DNA from: a virus
IMG/VR virus record: IMGVR_UViG_3300020472_000202
Location: 1-21,128 of that record
Direction: 5' to 3' (one strand)
DNA length: 21,128 nucleotides
This document shows positions 13,403 through 20,268 of this stretch, piece by piece. Positions within the stretch are counted from its first letter, which is position 1, and each line of letters starts with the position of its first letter. A model generated the notes under the pieces. That model searched no databases, was not told the DNA's origin, and saw only the letters and a list, made by a program, of their open reading frames with translations. The position numbers and the translations under genes were made by a program.

Positions 13403-14938
13403 TTAGAACTCTACTACGATCTTAATGTCCTCAATTTGGTCGCCAGCACGGGAGATTGCTCTCCTATTGTCTATGTAGATGACTTTTCCAGAGTCCTTCT
13501 TCACTTCTGGTTTGGCGTACCCAGATGTAAATGACATACCAAGATCATATTCAGTGTTGTTTATAACACGTGTTGCTTCACCAGGAATAATTGGGAAGTT
13601 AATGTCTGGGTCGGCAGAGGTACCTGATCCAGATCCAACAACAGTATTACCTCCATCAAAGACAGTCTTATTACCAGAGATCTCAGGGAAGATACCATCA
13701 ACTCTGTTCTGGTAGTATTTCAGAACTTTAGTTGTAGTATTCCAAGAAACAACTCGTCCTCTAGCAGTCACCTGTTGACCACCAATAGTACGAGTCTGTG
13801 TAATAATTTCGTCAGTGTTAAATGAACCTGTAAAATCTGGAGAGAAAATTACAGCGTTAGTAGCAGACAAGGTAATTGCGTCTGCCAATTCTTCGGTACC
13901 GTACTTGCTTGGATTAAGTGTTAATCCAATACGACGATAATCGTTATCAGTTGGGAAGTCACCTGATCCTTCATCGTAGGTGAACTTGGTGTTAATCATT
14001 ACACGAAAACCACCCAGTTCGATGGCTGGGTCTGATCCGTGTCCTCCCTTCGGTGCGATGATGACATCGATAGCACCACCGCTACCAGTACCAGCACCAA
14101 TACCGTTAATTTCATCAATAATTACCTTACCAAATGAGTAGTTAGAACCACCAGAGGTTACAGTAGCACTAACAATGCGACCGCCGTCCACAACGACACT
14201 AATCCTACCGCCCGTGCCATCTCCCTTGATCGGGATATTTTCGTATGTACCATTGTTGTAACCAGAACCAGATGATTGTATAACCACTGTATCTATCTCA
14301 CCACCAACGGCATCAGATTGTACAGCAGTGTCTTGTAGTACAGGCATATAATCGCCTGAGAAGAACTTCAGTACCTGACCGACGGGAATAGTAAACATAT
14401 ACTTCCAACGATAACCGTCGGCGGTAGTAATAATAGAAGTACTAGTTCCAGTAGGTTCAACTGTTGAAGGCTTTCCGTTAGGGTCGGAAGGTGAGGTACC
14501 ATTGTAAATACACTTGTAAGCTTGATATGAAGAGTTAACGACATAGAAATCAGCGTCATATAGTTTCGTAGCACCAGAAGATGCAGTCTTACTTGACGAA
14601 TAGTCGTGACGATACATATCGTACACATAACCTAAACCACCAGTGGTTTGTTCTGGGGGTATCCAGTCAATACGACGTATAACCTGAACAGCGTCGTTCG
14701 CTAGAACACGCTTCATCGAGATCATATCATCATATGAGTCGGAAAATTCTTGAAAAGAATCAACAGGAGTAGGTGGATTGTTCTCGTTATCCCACTCTTG
14801 AGGTCTTCCTATAAAAACATACAGACGATCACGATTCGCACCAGCAGCTATATCGCTCTGGTTCTTATCGGGACCTTCAAGCGATTTGATGAATTTTTCT
14901 GCGGTAAAAATCCTAAATTGATCGGTAAGTAATGCCAT
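13403..14938 (-). CDS. 8: Baseplate wedge protein gp8-like, 511 aa
   Basis: This is the best-recognised gene here. As I recall T4 gp8, segments match in order: the N-terminal LEGPDKN, IGRPQEW and PPTPVDS (residues 20-61); VIRRIDW (86-92; VIPRRDW in T4); ADGYRWKYMFTIP (173-185); RRIGLTLNP (335-343); and the C-terminal GKVIYIDNRRAI, DQIEDIKIVVEF (T4 GEMIYMENRPPI, DQTEEINILFTF). In T4, gp8 is a dimer in the wedge that bridges gp7, gp10 and gp6. The protein is longer than the ~334 aa of T4 gp8. Much of the excess lies at ~212-310, where GSGYNNGTYENIPI and GSNYSFGKVII repeats occur, and at ~350-475. The start follows a late promoter and a GAGGAAGG sequence. Expected location is the virion baseplate. 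Confidence 0.88.
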   Translation of the reverse strand: MALLTDQFRIFTAEKFIKSLEGPDKNQSDIAAGANRDRLYVFIGRPQEWDNENNPPTPVDSFQEFSDSYDDMISMKRVLANDAVQVIRRIDWIPPEQTTGGLGYVYDMYRHDYSSSKTASSGATKLYDADFYVVNSSYQAYKCIYNGTSPSDPNGKPSTVEPTGTSTSIITTADGYRWKYMFTIPVGQVLKFFSGDYMPVLQDTAVQSDAVGGEIDTVVIQSSGSGYNNGTYENIPIKGDGTGGRISVVVDGGRIVSATVTSGGSNYSFGKVIIDEINGIGAGTGSGGAIDVIIAPKGGHGSDPAIELGGFRVMINTKFTYDEGSGDFPTDNDYRRIGLTLNPSKYGTEELADAITLSATNAVIFSPDFTGSFNTDEIITQTRTIGGQQVTARGRVVSWNTTTKVLKYYQNRVDGIFPEISGNKTVFDGGNTVVGSGSGTSADPDINFPIIPGEATRVINNTEYDLGMSFTSGYAKPEVKKDSGKVIYIDNRRAISRAGDQIEDIKIVVEF

Positions 14939-14973: not shown

Positions 14974-16848
14974 TTAATCAGGCTCGTTTCTAACTGCTGA
15001 AGGATACTCAATTCTTAGAGTAGTTCCTATAGCACCAGTTCCCGCACCAGTGATTAATTCATTATTATTCCAGAGAGCGTTGCCGTTATTTTCAACAATA
15101 GACTTCACTCTTAATGTTTTAGTTTCAGAGTCCCAAGATTCAACTGTTCCAGTTATACCTGTGATAGAACCTGTTACAGTTTCATCAACGTTATAGTACT
15201 GAGCAGCACCTGGATCGAGACTACGGAAGATAAAATCAACTTTTGCATAATGCAGATCTCCATCACCAAGTGATCCAGCAACGGATACTGTGGGTGAAAG
15301 AGAAGGTTTTGAACCATCGGTCATTTGGTCACCAACTGCAAACAGAGTCGTGTTAGTACCACCAAGGGTTTCTTCAATACCATATAGTGATACTGCTATA
15401 CCACCATCTAGATTTATCTCACCTTCAAAATCTGTACCTGTGTTTATGATGTCAGGTATACCATCTCCAGCACCATCCAGTTCAGCAATATCTTCAAATG
15501 CTTTATCTGGAATCTCATTAAGTGGTACTGTTAAAGTTACAATATTGTTTCCAGCTGAATCAACAAGGTTGTGTGGAACAACACCAGTAGCAGATGCAGA
15601 TGCAACACCACCAGTAAAGTCAATAACCTGTGATTTAACTTGTGAACTACCACCATCAATGAATGCTAGTTCATCAACTTCAAATACTAGATACAACGAA
15701 CGAGTAGCTGGAATCCAGTCATAGACACGAGCAATTTTATTGCTAGAACTTTCATTGGTTCTAGTAACTCTGTCTCCTACATTAAAGTTATATCCTGAGA
15801 TACCACCTTGGTCTGCAAGACCATCCAGTACTACCTTCTGATCATATCTAAAATTAAGTGCACGGTCACAACCAGTAAAGGATGTGAGTGTCTTACCTGT
15901 ATAACGAATAACCTCCCTACCGACTAGGATCTTACCTGAGCCTGGATAAGGAGATGTTGTCTGTACATATACAGTCTGATCATTCTCATCAAGATCTTGA
16001 AGAAGACCTGTTATATCATAGATTGTTGAGTTGAAAGACTGTCTATTTCTAGACTCTTTTGTGAGATCAGTGTTTCTAGTGAATAGAACTTGAGGATCAC
16101 TGGAGTAACCACCACCAGGATTGGTGATGTCTATATGAGTAATAGCACCAAGATTAACTGTTGCTACTGCTTTACCACCAGATCCACCACCACCATTCAA
16201 TAGAATGATAGGTGGAGTTTCATAGAATTCACCCTGATTTGATACGTCAACAGATTTAACGATACCAAATTCGTCAACCTCAGTAACACCAGTAGCACCT
16301 TGACCGCCACCACCAGCAATAATGATATTGACATCACCTATCTCATAATTAGAACCAGCTTGTTCTAATGACAAACCAGTTACCAAACCTGTTACAGGAC
16401 GTAGTTCAGCACCAGATCCACCACCACCCTTTATCTCAGCAGTAGTAGGATCAGAGTAGTACTCGTCTCCGTTAGATAATACTTGAATATATTGTAACGA
16501 ACCAGCAGGTGCAATAATATTACCTTGGGAATCTAATTGATCTTCTTCCCATAGTATTGCTTTTGCCTTAGCACCTACTCCATTACCAGTTGTGGTTATA
16601 TCAATTCTAAAAGGATCATATCCTTCACCAGGATCAAGAACCTTGACAGCAGCAATCTGCCCGTGTTCAATGATCGGTTCGAGAACAGCGTCCCGAATCG
16701 GCGTACCACAGTTGGATATCTTTAGTTCAGGTGGATCAGAGCTGTTATAGCCAACACCACCATCCACCACATAAACGTCTCGAACGCCAAAAATAGAGTT
16801 AAAGAGTGGTTCAATTTTCGCTCCTGATCCTGGGACTGTTCTGGTCAT
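14974..16848 (-). CDS. Virion structural protein with GxGY repeats, 624 aa
   Basis: The ATG at 16846-16848 is 3 bases after the preceding stop. Residues ~20-255 hold about six repeats of a form like VxxxGxGYxxxPxIxxxxxGGxGAxA: GGVGYNSSDPP (30-40), DPGEGYDPF (72-80), SNGDEYYSDP (125-134), QAGSNYEIG (163-171), NQGEFYETPP (204-213) and NPGGGYSSDP (243-252). Glycine runs separate them. This beta-rich repeat is widespread in marine T4-like phage baseplate and fibre proteins. Residues ~260-350 form a different region (GSGKILVGREVIRYTGK, then TSFTGCDRALNFRYDQ). The C-terminal half has VGDRVTR- and FAVGDQMTDG-like segments and an NVDETVTGSITGITG region resembling small barrel repeats. Its position just before gp8 suggests a baseplate part. 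I cannot match it to T4 gp7. Function is otherwise unassigned. Confidence 0.85.
   Translation of the reverse strand: MTRTVPGSGAKIEPLFNSIFGVRDVYVVDGGVGYNSSDPPELKISNCGTPIRDAVLEPIIEHGQIAAVKVLDPGEGYDPFRIDITTTGNGVGAKAKAILWEEDQLDSQGNIIAPAGSLQYIQVLSNGDEYYSDPTTAEIKGGGGSGAELRPVTGLVTGLSLEQAGSNYEIGDVNIIIAGGGGQGATGVTEVDEFGIVKSVDVSNQGEFYETPPIILLNGGGGSGGKAVATVNLGAITHIDITNPGGGYSSDPQVLFTRNTDLTKESRNRQSFNSTIYDITGLLQDLDENDQTVYVQTTSPYPGSGKILVGREVIRYTGKTLTSFTGCDRALNFRYDQKVVLDGLADQGGISGYNFNVGDRVTRTNESSSNKIARVYDWIPATRSLYLVFEVDELAFIDGGSSQVKSQVIDFTGGVASASATGVVPHNLVDSAGNNIVTLTVPLNEIPDKAFEDIAELDGAGDGIPDIINTGTDFEGEINLDGGIAVSLYGIEETLGGTNTTLFAVGDQMTDGSKPSLSPTVSVAGSLGDGDLHYAKVDFIFRSLDPGAAQYYNVDETVTGSITGITGTVESWDSETKTLRVKSIVENNGNALWNNNELITGAGTGAIGTTLRIEYPSAVRNEPD
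16080..16780 (-). repeat. Array of ~6 GxGY protein repeats (~40 residues each)
   Basis: Degenerate repeats in the N-terminal 255 residues of the 624-aa protein, with Gly-Gly-Gly-Gly runs between units. Single or paired units of the same kind occur in the partial gene at ~20727-20882 and in the gp8-like protein at ~14010-14305. Confidence 0.75.
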
Positions 16849-16851
16849 TTA

Positions 16852-18507
16852 TCATTTTACGGTGATTGTGCCGTTCATATCGGCGTGCGCTGTGCACTGA
16901 TAATATAAGGTATCTGGTGCATCAAGTGGAACGGTAATAACTTGCATACCTGTGTTAGATCCAGAAACACCAGTTGTATACTCTGTACCAGAGGTACCAG
17001 AACTAGACTGAATCCTTAATGGGTGTGCACCACCTGCTTGGTTATGCAAATCATATGTAAATCCTCTATGGAATACCAAAGAAGCATTAGATACGTTAGT
17101 TGCTAAGCCAGGTCCGTTAACTGTATATGCACTCATTCCAGATGCAGTGAACTTATAAAGCAATGTTGGAGATGGCTTATAGATCGTTGCATTATCGTGA
17201 CCCTTAATGATAGATGCACCAGCAGGAGCATTACCAATCTGAGTCTGGAATCCACCACCAACTTCAGCGAAGTTAGTACCATCATTAGCAATATCAAAGG
17301 TACCGTTAGTACCAATCTTCATTCTCTTAGTACCAATCTTGATCTCACCATCAGCAGGGAGTTCAAGGTTACCATCAGCATCGATCTTTAATTTTCTAGT
17401 AGAAGTACCAAATCTAATTTCTCCATCAGGAACCGTTAGGTTACCAGTTGAGTCCATTGCTAATTTGTGAGTAGTACCAAACTGAATCTCAGTATCTTGA
17501 TCAAGAACTAGGTTATCACTACCATCAAATTCTATAAGTTTCTTAGAACCAGAAGCACCGAAACGTAGTTTCGATCCAGTAAGTTCTAGAACACCTGAAT
17601 CATCAAAGAATAATTTGTTACCACTACCAAAGTCTAAATCCTGACCACCAATATCAACTTTACCAGACTCATCTTCACTTAGAATTCTATTGACTGATCT
17701 GATTCTAACTGCATTTGCTACAGACAATTCTTGAGATTGGTTAGCACCAACAGCAGCTACTTGGATGTAACCACGTGCTGCACCTGCTTCAGCAGTGAAT
17801 GATGTAAACGTAACTTCTGCTTTAGCATCAGTAGAGTCTACAAGTTCCAGAGTGGTGCCAGCCTTCATAGCATTGAAACGAAGTCTGAACTTCTCTTCTT
17901 GTGTAGAATCTTCTGAAGATAATTTAGAAGCAACGGTACGAGTAGCACCAGTGTCAATACTATTAACTGTATGTGATTCTTCCTTCTTCCTCTTTATCTC
18001 ACCTGCTTCCTCAGATATAGCAGTATCACCAATCCAAAGTGAAGCACTGGTTAGATAAAGATCTCTGAAACGTAATGTAGAAGAACCCAAGTCATAAGCA
18101 TTATCAGTATTGGGAAGGAAGTTCGTAGAAATAACAACCTCATCACTACCATTGTTGGTAAGATTTGTTATTGCAGAACCACCGCCACCACCACCTTGTA
18201 GATCGTCGCCTGGCTGCCAGCGAGCATTAGCAGTATTCCACTTAAGAACCTGTCCATTAGTAACCCCACTAACGTCTATGTCCGTAAGATTTGATGCTGC
18301 TAGTTGTCCCTCTGTAAACGTACTACCAGTCCATTTGAGGACATTGTTCGTTGAGGGTGAATTAATTGTTATTTGAAGGTTAGTGTTATCTCCAAGGGCT
18401 GCATACAACTCATCTATAACGTTGTTGAGTTTAATAGCACCGTCTCGTAAGGTATCACCTGTTCCGTCATTGGCACTTACGCCAATATTAAGGTTCTGCT
18501 TAGCCAT
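16852..18507 (-). CDS. Tail-fibre-like protein with C-terminal cupredoxin-like domain, 551 aa
   Basis: The N-terminus (NIGVSANDGTGDTLRDGAIK, INELYAALG-like) is a pattern shared by many phage fibre-type proteins. Two VLKW segments (~57 and ~88), a glycine run (105-110) and a YDLGSSTLRFRDLYL motif (~138-152) follow. Residues ~170-280 are mixed and charged. Residues ~291-408 are about five 22-27-residue beta repeats (EIxFGTxxxLxxDxxGNLxxP). The last ~100 residues resemble a cupredoxin: H495, then LYYQCTAHADM with C538, H541 and M544, the order of type-1 copper ligands. There is no signal peptide, so it is not a plastocyanin redox carrier. No clear Shine-Dalgarno lies before the ATG at 18505-18507. 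A near-consensus late promoter does. It is probably a virion fibre or decoration protein; bound copper is unproven. Confidence 0.86.
   Translation of the reverse strand: MAKQNLNIGVSANDGTGDTLRDGAIKLNNVIDELYAALGDNTNLQITINSPSTNNVLKWTGSTFTEGQLAASNLTDIDVSGVTNGQVLKWNTANARWQPGDDLQGGGGGGSAITNLTNNGSDEVVISTNFLPNTDNAYDLGSSTLRFRDLYLTSASLWIGDTAISEEAGEIKRKKEESHTVNSIDTGATRTVASKLSSEDSTQEEKFRLRFNAMKAGTTLELVDSTDAKAEVTFTSFTAEAGAARGYIQVAAVGANQSQELSVANAVRIRSVNRILSEDESGKVDIGGQDLDFGSGNKLFFDDSGVLELTGSKLRFGASGSKKLIEFDGSDNLVLDQDTEIQFGTTHKLAMDSTGNLTVPDGEIRFGTSTRKLKIDADGNLELPADGEIKIGTKRMKIGTNGTFDIANDGTNFAEVGGGFQTQIGNAPAGASIIKGHDNATIYKPSPTLLYKFTASGMSAYTVNGPGLATNVSNASLVFHRGFTYDLHNQAGGAHPLRIQSSSGTSGTEYTTGVSGSNTGMQVITVPLDAPDTLYYQCTAHADMNGTITVK
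16855..17166 (-). other. Cupredoxin-like domain of the 551-aa protein
   Basis: Residues ~448-551. Putative ligands: H495 (codon 17023-17025, in GGAHPLRI), C538 (16894-16896), H541 and M544. Cys-x2-His-x2-Met is the short loop spacing of amicyanin, tighter than plastocyanin (x2, x4) or azurin (x4, x3). The LYYQC strand before the Cys and NGTITV after the Met fit the final cupredoxin strands. Confidence 0.75.
17284..17637 (-). repeat. Five ~22-27-residue beta repeats
   Basis: Residues ~291-408 of the 551-aa protein. Units read approximately EIQFGTTHKLAMDSTGNLTV, EIRFGTSTRKLKIDADGNLE and EIKIGTKRMKIG, with two more diverged units before them. Such short repeats probably form a trimeric beta-fibre shaft. 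Confidence 0.75.
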
Positions 18508-18531
18508 AGTAGTGGGGTTTTTCTACAGTTT

Positions 18532-18539
18532 TATTTATG
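18532..18539 (-). promoter_or_regulatory. Probable late promoter, one mismatch (CATAAATA)
   Basis: The minus strand reads CATAAATA, one base from the T4 late consensus, 24 bases before the ATG of the 551-aa gene. The element overlaps the TAA stop codon (18535-18537) of the upstream 577-aa gene. Confidence 0.6.
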
Positions 18540-20268
18540 TAAGGTCAAATTCATAATTAGTTAAATCAAAACGTACATTATTTCTAGTAAAGTCTGGGTT
18601 GGTATTATCCCTATCAAATGGGACTGCCGTCATATCAAATCTACCAACGTTACTATCCCATTTAAGAACGTTTGAAGTATCTTCGCCACCAGTACCACCA
18701 GTGACAGTTAGGATAACAAGGTTAGATGCTAGAGGTGAGTTCTGTGCTTGTACTTCACCACCTATAGGACCAGTAACGATACATCTAAATCGATAACCAG
18801 TCATATAAGCCAGTGCTATTAATGAATATGATGCTGAATTAGCACCAGTAATATTCGCCCAGGCAAAGCCTCCATCAGTTGAAACTTGCCATTGATACCC
18901 TTTAGTACCATCTTCAGGTTCAATTACGGCAATCAAACTAAACGTTTGAGTACCACCATTAGCAATAGTTGCATTAGTGGGCTGATTAGTAATAAGAATA
19001 CTAGGAGCAGCAGGTGGATCTCCTCCACCTTCACCTTCTCCACCACCAGCAGCCTGCCCTATGCCTTGGTTTGCTGGTATATTTAGTGCCTCTTTAGAAG
19101 AAAGACCAAATATAAATGGGAATTTAGGTGTCAAGTAACGGTTAGGTACTACAGTTACTACATTAGTACCACCCATCTCTGGATGATATAAGCACCAATA
19201 GTAAAGAGTTGAAGGTGCATCTTGGGGTACTGTTATCTCTACGTAAGCACCTGGTTGACCTGGTGTACCAACAACAGTAACACCATCAGTATATTCTGTT
19301 CCACCTTGATGTGTTCCGTCTTGAGTAGATGAAAATCTAAATGGATGTGGATGATTACTGCTATCTGATTGATCAAATCTATATGTGCTTCCCTTTATTA
19401 ATGTTAAATTTGCAAATTCTACTCCATCAATGAAGTAATCACCTTGTTGTAAGGTGACAGTATAGTTTTTACTCTCAGTCTCGTCGTTCCAAATTGTTAC
19501 AAAGTAAGCAAAAGTACCGTTTGGATACTCAGGAGTATGACAATAGCGACCATTATAAACATCTAAATGCCTCCCAGGTTTGTCAACGTTGTACTCATAG
19601 TCCTCCATCAACGCACCCTTGGGTGGATTTGCTGTTGTAGTACCATAAGCAGGTCTATTTACAGCAATTGATGCATTCATTTGATACCCTGTCTCCATTA
19701 TTACAACTGGAGATGTATTATCTTGAGGTAAATTGTATCCGTATGGACCATATACAGGATACCCATCAAATGATAAACCTAAAATCTTTGAGTGACCGTC
19801 AGGGTGACGCATATTGTCGCCAACATACTGACTTAAACCATAGTAATCATTATAAGCACCCATCACCTGATTAGCTTTCCAGCAACTTATAAAATCTCCA
19901 TCGTGATAATGGTATTGATCATTGTCATTAGGATGACCACCACAACTATCTTCACCAAAATTAACCATTCCAAAATTTTCAGTTGCAACCCAATGAAATC
20001 CTACAGGAGGACTTCCTAGATCACCAGCAGAAGGATTGAAGAGTGCAACACCATTTGCTGCTATACCAACAATACCTAATGGATAACTCTCACTAGTTTG
20101 TGTATTATTTCCACCTCTATATGTAAAAGCGTGACTAAAAGTGTAAGTCGCTATTTCATTAGGGTTGTTTGCATTAGGAAATGTCCCACTAGTAACGGGA
20201 TGAGGTAACCCATCACCCGTTACTGTGAGAATGTCATTACTTGGATTGTAACTACCGTTAGCTGCCAT
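18535..20268 (-). CDS. Multidomain virion protein: YHYH + cupredoxin-like + Ig-like, 577 aa
   Basis: The ATG at 20266-20268 shares one base with the upstream stop (TAATG). Residues ~50-262 fit the YHYH family: GVALFNPS, EDSCGGHPND, YHYH at 119-122, GLSFDGYPVYGPYGY (164-178), then HLDVYNGRYCHTPEYPNGTF. The biochemical role of this family is not known to me. Residues ~266-374 are cupredoxin-like, with H308 and LYYWCLYHPEM (C359, H362, M365). A Gly/Glu-rich linker (~401-420) leads to an Ig-like domain (~421-523; NQPTNATIANGGTQTFSLIA, YQWQVSTDGG, YRFRCIVTG). A short tail repeats RFDxT and FDLT. There is no signal peptide. Its place among baseplate genes and its fibre-type Ig module suggest a virion-displayed decoration or adhesin. 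Function is inferred only. Confidence 0.87.
   Translation of the reverse strand: MAANGSYNPSNDILTVTGDGLPHPVTSGTFPNANNPNEIATYTFSHAFTYRGGNNTQTSESYPLGIVGIAANGVALFNPSAGDLGSPPVGFHWVATENFGMVNFGEDSCGGHPNDNDQYHYHDGDFISCWKANQVMGAYNDYYGLSQYVGDNMRHPDGHSKILGLSFDGYPVYGPYGYNLPQDNTSPVVIMETGYQMNASIAVNRPAYGTTTANPPKGALMEDYEYNVDKPGRHLDVYNGRYCHTPEYPNGTFAYFVTIWNDETESKNYTVTLQQGDYFIDGVEFANLTLIKGSTYRFDQSDSSNHPHPFRFSSTQDGTHQGGTEYTDGVTVVGTPGQPGAYVEITVPQDAPSTLYYWCLYHPEMGGTNVVTVVPNRYLTPKFPFIFGLSSKEALNIPANQGIGQAAGGGEGEGGGDPPAAPSILITNQPTNATIANGGTQTFSLIAVIEPEDGTKGYQWQVSTDGGFAWANITGANSASYSLIALAYMTGYRFRCIVTGPIGGEVQAQNSPLASNLVILTVTGGTGGEDTSNVLKWDSNVGRFDMTAVPFDRDNTNPDFTRNNVRFDLTNYEFDLT
18700..19008 (-). other. Ig-like domain of the 577-aa protein
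   Basis: Residues ~421-523. Hallmarks are an NQPTNATIANGGTQTFSL first strand, the YQWQVSTDGGFAWANI tryptophan strand and YRFRCIVTG as the cysteine strand. It is similar to the Ig-like domain in the adjoining upstream gene. Such domains are common surface decorations on tailed phages. Confidence 0.8.
19147..19473 (-). other. Cupredoxin-like domain of the 577-aa protein
   Basis: Residues ~266-374. Putative copper ligands: H308 (codon 19345-19347, in HPHPFRF), C359 (19192-19194), H362 and M365, again Cys-x2-His-x2-Met. The APSTLYYWC strand is similar to APDTLYYQC in the neighbouring gene, and GTEYTDGV corresponds to GTEYTTGV there. Confidence 0.77.
19483..20121 (-). other. YHYH domain of the 577-aa protein
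   Basis: Residues ~50-262, defined by the CGGHPNDNDQYHYHDGD block, the GYPVYGPYGY block and the NGRYCHTPEYPNGTF block in the order expected for the family. Conserved Cys/His include C109, H112, H120, H122 and C243, suggesting metal binding as an inference. Confidence 0.85.

Follow-up and report, generated by a model that had tools for sequence, protein, structure and literature searches.

Blue copper cupredoxins, including plastocyanin, amicyanin, rusticyanin, AcoP, and the N-terminal domain of the Hyphomicrobium nitrite reductase, are the closest described counterparts of two domains encoded side by side in the virus record IMGVR_UViG_3300020472_000202. The window analyzed here is this entire IMG/VR record, 21,128 bases, which may be a fragment. 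Metal at the extremity of a phage tail has a precedent in iron, as passages of one paper describe HxH iron sites in T4 gp37 and a proposal for the Alteromonas phage R22Y (PMC11705849). The YHYH domain (PF14240), which is fused upstream of one of the two cupredoxin-like domains yet is a separate domain, has been reported in fusions to tail proteins and predicted as a zinc-dependent hydrolase in passages of another paper, whose main text contains no occurrence of the words cupredoxin, copper, or plastocyanin (PMC7824862). The two genes of interest lie on the minus strand and encode P0001 (551 amino acids [aa]; 16852..18507) and P0002 (577 aa; 18535..20268). It is nearly certain that their cupredoxin-like domains have a cupredoxin fold with a conserved site. 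On the evidence of predicted models, each protein carries a real cupredoxin domain with a complete type-1 ligand set and an amicyanin-length loop, located at the C terminus of P0001 and in the middle of P0002.

The phage domains resemble the blue copper cupredoxins in predicted fold, in the arrangement His...Cys-x2-His-x2-Met, and in the placement of the Cys at a strand end. They differ in being fused to baseplate and fiber modules, in having Pro rather than Asn after the first His, and in having no known electron-transfer partner, and their site is a predicted one. The loop is shared with amicyanin; however, the phage domains are not classed as amicyanin because they are not secreted soluble carriers, being fused to phage modules without a signal-like start. 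The likeness to the iron fiber tips lies in the metal at the tail extremity, whereas those tips are trimeric with HxH iron and the phage cupredoxin domain is a single chain with a mononuclear His/Cys/His/Met set. Cupredoxins themselves are already known, and their recurrence as a marine phage tail module is apparently new; no report of it was found among the titles and abstract openings of open-access papers listed by literature searches.

The P0002 domain covers residues 266 to 374 (19147..19473, minus strand), with the ligands H308, C359, H362, and M365, and the P0001 domain covers residues 444 to 551 (16855..17178, minus strand), with H495, C538, H541, and M544; C538 is the sole Cys of P0001. 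The interval 16855-19473 has the final P0001 codon at one end and P0002 codon 266 at the other. Residue checks placed the ligands exactly where an earlier note on this DNA had put them, and the strand context it described (HP[F/L]R, GTEYT, and AP.TLYY.C) is present in both domains.

The same note read the domains as cupredoxins, and the predicted models agree, matching solved cupredoxins with no other fold coming out. The AlphaFold2 (AF2) model of the P0002 domain (109 aa, 39-sequence alignment) has a mean predicted local distance difference test (pLDDT) score of 97.4. Its best Foldseek rows in the Protein Data Bank (PDB) are AcoP (E 4.2e-4) and rusticyanin (E 5.3e-4). Copper proteins, judged by title, make up 46 of the 50 rows listed, and the other four (two antibodies, a semaphorin, and an arginine deiminase) are taken as beta-sandwich background. 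Structural comparison with VIA gives a Z score of 8.6 to both nitrite reductase 2dv6 (root mean square deviation [rmsd] of 2.4 Å over 91 residues) and rusticyanin 2cal (2.7 Å over 100 residues). The P0001 model (residues 421 to 551) has a mean pLDDT of 85, with a poorly predicted N-terminal linker and ten-residue blocks of 88 to 97 within the domain. Rusticyanin is its best Foldseek match (E 1e-5) among 19 at E ≤0.001, and VIA places it at a Z score of 10.6 and an rmsd of 2.1 Å over 93 residues to 2dv6, with a Z score of at least 8 for 116 of 999 chains. Both models are Greek-key beta-sandwiches, with moderate scores for P0002 and clearer ones for P0001, and rusticyanin, nitrite reductase, plastocyanin, and amicyanin head the matches to solved structures. 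Among viral predicted structures (BFVD), the named matches are mostly cyanophage virion and tail-fiber proteins. Three BFVD entries named "Beta-sandwich proteins" and labeled pithovirus and marseillevirus (A0A481Z6J5, A0A481Z7Q7, and A0A481YWX9) also match the P0002 model, at E 3e-7 to 7e-6.

Sequence profiles lead to the same proteins. A profile of the P0001-type domain (A3) matches plastocyanin in the PDB at E 2.5e-6 by hmmsearch, and its other matches include amicyanins and 2vmj, a nitrite reductase with an engineered amicyanin-type loop (E 2.7e-4). In the plastocyanin alignments the His, Cys, His, and Met of the phage domain fall on the copper ligands, first His on first His, and the four ligands are likewise brought together in the nitrite reductase alignments. 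These pairings, ligand by ligand, give indirect support to a predicted convergence of the four side chains in space. A profile of the wider family (A1, 39 rows) gives weaker matches in the PDB that are likewise led by copper proteins (best E 0.0063, with E ≤10 for 42 sequences). Antibody chains and others rank lower in both searches and are taken as beta-sandwich background. No phage protein is among the listed PDB chains matched by A1 or A3, and therefore no solved phage copy of the domain was found by these searches. Against curated families, amicyanin TIGR02657 matches 9 of the 39 A1 members at E ≤1 (best 5.5e-6), with the P0002 domain unmatched, and PF00127 (Copper-bind) matches 12 of the 39 (best E 0.0013). 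Eight of the 39 members also match PF25489, a plant At5g54830-like domain, and the best of these matches (E 1.2e-4) surpasses the best one to PF00127.

Within the window the arrangement is specific to these two places. The family profile, built from database relatives that were retrieved with the two domains as queries so that its E values are not independent of them, matches exactly these two domains among the open reading frames (ORFs) of at least 60 aa (E 1.6e-47 and 1.4e-32), with no match elsewhere among those ORFs. The pattern H-x(25-70)-C-x2-H-x2-M occurs six times in the window ORFs longer than 200 aa, the six matches being several upstream His residues paired with the same two loops, compared with a mean of 0.0025 in shuffled ORFs; two or more matches arose in 1 of 2,000 shuffles. 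A chance motif is rejected by the shuffles, by the specificity of the family profile, and by ligand conservation. A recent tandem duplication in the window is unsupported, as the two domains are 41% identical and the tree separates near relatives of P0001 from P0002.

The four ligands are strongly conserved together. When 330 copies of the domain were reduced to 110 non-redundant ones, leaving out only near-duplicates, all four ligands (HCHM) were kept in 102 (57/63 from viral contigs, 44/46 from genome contigs, and the 1/1 from the window). Ranked by conservation, the columns of the Met (97%), the Cys (96%), and the second His (95%) are within the top five of the domain, and that of the first His (94%) is ninth. 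The eight remaining copies comprise three that are unaligned at the Cys-His-Met loop and five that are aligned at all four positions; all of the latter have lost three or four ligands and none has lost one or two, with three of the five belonging to a single multidomain protein (L064). Such joint loss in degenerate copies is expected of a metal site. Each of the four ligand columns also reaches at least 90% in A1, which retains one degenerate copy (L034) and omits 5 of 42 copies. The omitted ones come from L064 and L082; three are degenerate, and the other two are intact but carry long insertions. C-x2-H-x2-M is found in 37 of 41 copies counted from that 42-copy set.

Because some of the database patterns contained ligand residues, a census was run with patterns taken from the first half of the domain only and free of the Cys, second His, and Met. 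It yielded 160 loci, of which 132 distinct copies passed the first-half profile to its end and three of these were stopped by contig ends; loci without a profile match were left uncounted. Many of its contigs overlap those of earlier scans, and the first His sits in some patterns, so that the census is not unbiased at that position. C-x2-H-x(2-4)-M is kept in 128 of the 129 complete viral copies (63/64 non-redundant), and the sole exception (L425) has lost all four ligands, His included. Distinct copies that contain no ligand-bearing pattern keep HCHM in 45 of 61 cases. The other 16 consist of six incompletely aligned copies (K---, N---, and -CHM), eight with L064-type strings (YETM, YCYY, and HSGE), one KSDP, and one YSQM. 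Distinct copies with a ligand-free pattern read HCHM in 60 of 64 cases, YETM in three, and are truncated in one. Fifteen named phages show HCHM in 18 of 22 matched stretches, with at least one per phage, and the remaining four are partial matches. The earlier note would have been undercut by homologues that freely lose Cys, His, and Met; these were looked for, and the counts of 102/110 and 128/129 speak otherwise.

The amicyanin-length loop it described also recurs: of the 330 copies, 299 match Y.C..H.{2,5}M, and in every one of these the His and the Met are two residues apart as in C-x2-H-x2-M. Longer loops created by insertions are present in S-SKS1 and Sf-CH1b. The residue following the Cys is Ser or Thr in 77 of the 102 intact copies. 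Since the ligand Cys is the only Cys in 99 of these 102, a disulfide inside the domain is rejected for them.

Under one alternative, the domain is a metal-free adhesin, a cupredoxin-derived receptor-binding sandwich in which Cys, His, and Met are kept for folding only; the earlier note had likewise raised an apo-cupredoxin adhesin. Site-less copies are indeed still encoded (L064, L034, L159, and, in Syn9, a third stretch that is matched only in part and lacks the first His). However, the four residues are conserved jointly and lost jointly, and surfaces that contact receptors usually diversify instead of preserving a residue set of this kind. If the site were unused, neither retention of the complete set nor its loss as a block would be expected, which disfavors the adhesin, and we regard it as quite improbable. 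The multidomain L064 protein mentioned above is itself unusual, a very long phage ORF (3,079 aa from position 1960) with seven cupredoxin-like stretches, a mixture of intact copies and copies missing three ligands.

We consider it probable that the phage domain binds copper in the virion. A second alternative grants the metal and questions its identity, proposing zinc or another metal as a purely structural pin of the beta-sandwich tip. The evidence concerns the conserved ligand set rather than the metal in it, and many recombinant cupredoxins are found with zinc. The YHYH domain that neighbors the cupredoxin domain in P0002 is a predicted zinc site according to passages of PMC7824862. On the other side, none of the four ligands is better conserved than Met (97%). 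The combination His-Cys-His-Met is that of type-1 copper and zinc sites seldom use Met, so that the zinc pin appears unlikely.

Several points weigh against the copper reading. The P0002 model has only four Foldseek matches at E ≤0.001, with a TM score of about 0.56, which is moderate, and its VIA Z scores reach at least 8 in only 8 of 997 chains when unmatched models reach 7 to 8 according to the warning of the tool. Single members match the curated copper families weakly. P0001 scores 13.6 bits against PF00127, under the gathering cutoff of 21.2, and the P0002 domain matches neither PF00127 nor any NCBIfam model, with Cu-oxidase_3 at E 0.15 as its only Pfam match. Pro follows the first His in 97 of the 102 intact copies, and Asn does so in one. 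Classical blue copper proteins have Asn there, where it makes a second-sphere hydrogen bond, though not universally. The conserved Pro marks the domain as its own branch of the cupredoxins and may give the site an unusual spectrum, color, or affinity. None of the window's proteins is named in a virion proteome. Finally, the norm for cupredoxins is electron transfer, yet no redox partner is evident on the virion.

The proteins that carry the domain point to a location in the virion. Residues 3 to 81 of P0001 match PF07880 (T4_gp9_10_N; E 2e-10, 41.5 bits against a cutoff of 25), and in the PDB search the N terminus matches T4 gp10 residues 2 to 41 (E 3.2e-6); this T4 gp9/gp10-type domain is followed by a long middle part and the C-terminal cupredoxin-like domain. 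P0001 matches phrog_677, a cyanophage family annotated "baseplate wedge tail fiber protein connector", at E 1.6e-67 as a whole, and the best stretch aligns residues 74 to 551 with profile positions 184 to 409 of 412. Because this match reaches the last P0001 residue, the copper-protein-like domain belongs to the phrog_677 family. P0002 is a virion-type protein with matches to PHROG virion and tail families, and it combines a YHYH domain (residues 54 to 259; window 19492-20109; Pfam E 1.2e-30), the cupredoxin-like domain, and an Ig-like domain at approximately residues 423 to 516, for which PDB phmmer matches are phage Ig-like and tail proteins. The earlier note reported fusion to fiber, YHYH, or Ig modules, and Pfam, PHROG, and PDB matches support fusion to tail and baseplate modules. 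In keeping with its remark on signal peptides, neither protein shows a hydrophobic, signal-like N terminus when judged by eye.

The domain is present in tail proteins of hundreds of sequenced cyanophages. Searched by tblastn, a set of 50,697 phage records gave 321 matches to the P0001 domain (249 records of Synechococcus, 50 of "Cyanophage", 19 of Prochlorococcus, and 3 of marine single-cell viruses). The P0002 domain matched 287, among which are three Pelagibacter phages and four Methylophilales phages, and a third query matched 199. For scale, the gp8-like protein of the window is found in 519 records, and 459 of these bear the name Synechococcus, Cyanophage, or Prochlorococcus; all these counts include many near-identical isolates, and the domain and gp8-like record sets were not matched record by record. 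Nearly all phage records with the domain are cyanophages, and examples include the T4-like Syn9, P-GSP1 (Autographiviridae, a podovirus-type cyanophage), pelagiphage HTVC028P, and Methylophilales phage Melnitz. The organism tallies of the three queries contain no enterobacterial phage; two of the tallied records carry names that give no host. The listed annotations of the matches include baseplate wedge tail fiber connector, tail pin, gp9, tail fiber/fibre, virion structural protein, and hypothetical protein, and none of the genes in the listed rows of the phage-record searches is named cupredoxin. Gene 231 of S-SCSM1 encodes an intact copy annotated "virion protein". The virion proteome of this phage was measured by mass spectrometry, and the relevant passages of the paper do not name gene 231 (PMC9602691).

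Cellular relatives extend the family beyond viruses. A genome scan found 67 loci, by title mostly marine metagenome-assembled genomes (MAGs) and single cells, and several of the cellular loci encode proteins with a lipobox-like start, signal peptides of these copies being judged by a crude hydrophobicity script. One (L112:3245-4339), an archaeal lipoprotein from a Euryarchaeota MAG, combines collagen-like Gly-X-Y repeats with a copy of the domain close to the C terminus, and L114, L119, L121, L122, L125, L128, and L129 have similar N termini. A locus from a MAG titled Acidiferrobacter (L118) groups with the archaeal lipoproteins and may be misbinned. The domain lies at or near the C terminus in SAR86 and other gammaproteobacterial proteins, a Woeseiaceae protein (L139) has a cadherin-like stretch just below the Pfam cutoff, and one copy sits in what is presumably a fasciclin-like repeat protein. 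Chromosomal neighbors (BacA, RecO, EamA, and phenol hydroxylase) were found at 3/3 loci checked, two with a lipobox-like start (L121 and L139) and one with none seen (L133). Two Pelagibacteraceae genes (L148 and L152) were rejected as cellular, being T7-like tail fibers, as was a "Euryarchaeota" MAG locus (L108), the gene of which matches phage tail families. A stalk with a cupredoxin domain near its tip is therefore an arrangement common to phage tails and to cell lipoproteins of the same habitat. Judged from sequence comparison, the family is more general than the earlier note had claimed, taking in T4-like cyanophages, a podovirus-type cyanophage, a pelagiphage, Methylophilales phages, and marine cell lipoproteins.

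The tree of HCHM copies (102 rows, 112 columns) has many open forks and an unsettled bootstrap. P0001 was dropped from it as a near-duplicate and is represented by near relatives such as L011. A branch with support of 99/91 divides the gp9-type copies, the relatives of P0001, from the part of the tree holding P0002, which falls in a seven-row clade (99/87). Phage and cell labels are intermixed (22 changes against a minimum of 2) and more clustered than shuffled labels, in a poorly resolved topology.

The occurrence of the same domain in marine bacterial and archaeal lipoproteins, together with electron carriers among its nearest solved folds, is what a redox module would lead one to expect, passing electrons to or from the host surface or scavenging oxidants during adsorption. 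However, no redox partner domain was recognized in P0001 to P0004 or the gp8-like protein by Pfam and PHROG scans, and the hosts (Synechococcus, Prochlorococcus, Pelagibacter, and Methylophilales) differ in their electron chains, which leaves such a module a slim prospect.

We somewhat favor a metal-locked attachment or tip module that would acquire its metal outside the host cell. Lacking a signal peptide, the protein would be made in a cytosol that should contain almost no free copper, and would for these reasons be packed in its apo-form. After lysis, the preformed site would take up copper, or less likely zinc, from seawater. The metal would then pin the Cys-His-Met loop to the beta-sandwich and stiffen the exposed end of the domain, and this stiffened end could serve as the contact surface of a peripheral attachment module, either in host attachment or in holding the fiber to the baseplate. 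An attachment or tip role, taken by itself, remains tentative; it is preferred because the domain sits in baseplate connectors, fibers, and lipoproteins, often at their ends. The metal could alternatively act as bait, a copper version of the Ferrojan horse in which tail copper is recognized by host copper-uptake receptors. The near confinement of the domain to cyanophages and other marine phages fits such bait, yet type-1 copper is tightly held and buried. The iron sites in tail fibers that passages of PMC11705849 describe in T4 gp37, and propose in an Alteromonas phage from the sea, offer a parallel, and we see only a small chance that copper is used in this way.

A broader version of the metal-locked module, which we think rather doubtful, would make the virions of common marine tailed phages copper proteins, with several type-1 domains per particle on baseplate and fiber tips, made metal-free and loaded from seawater, copper switching the tail to an attachment-competent form, and the domain passing back and forth between phages and the surface lipoproteins that marine bacteria and archaea make. 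If true, virus particles would be part of the copper-binding ligand pool of the ocean. Should the domains simply bind copper, some 318 cyanophage-named records would contain a baseplate protein that is a metalloprotein and is not named as one in its listed annotations, and the idea of iron on tails would gain a second, better-defined metal with a diagnostic color and electron paramagnetic resonance (EPR) signal. Cultured phages (Syn9, S-SM1, and P-SSM4) make the question concrete: is copper in the particle, and is it needed for adsorption? The domain also offers a marker for naming "hypothetical" marine tail proteins and bacterial and archaeal lipoproteins.

The seven long ORFs scanned in the window are all on the minus strand and form a T4-like baseplate and fiber block. 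Besides P0001 and P0002, the block holds a T4 gp8-like baseplate wedge protein (511 aa; 13403..14938; PF09215 E 1.1e-15; phrog_438), a baseplate wedge-type neighbor (624 aa; 14974..16848; phrog_22827 and phrog_708) in which the family-profile scan found no cupredoxin copy, a DUF4815 protein of 2,403 aa, and an Mtd_N-type protein of 1,891 aa, among several wedge and virion proteins. In Syn9, gp103 (L251, ORF from 3831), the baseplate gene after gp102, has another HCHM copy, and the window gene in the same place, P0004, has none. Because of this difference the domain may move between adjacent baseplate genes, the equivalence of gp103 and P0004 being by position only. Clustered His and Cys residues in the YHYH domain of P0002 (CGGHPNDNDQYHYHDGDFISC, with RYCHTPE shortly after, within the domain) possibly form a second metal site in the same protein.

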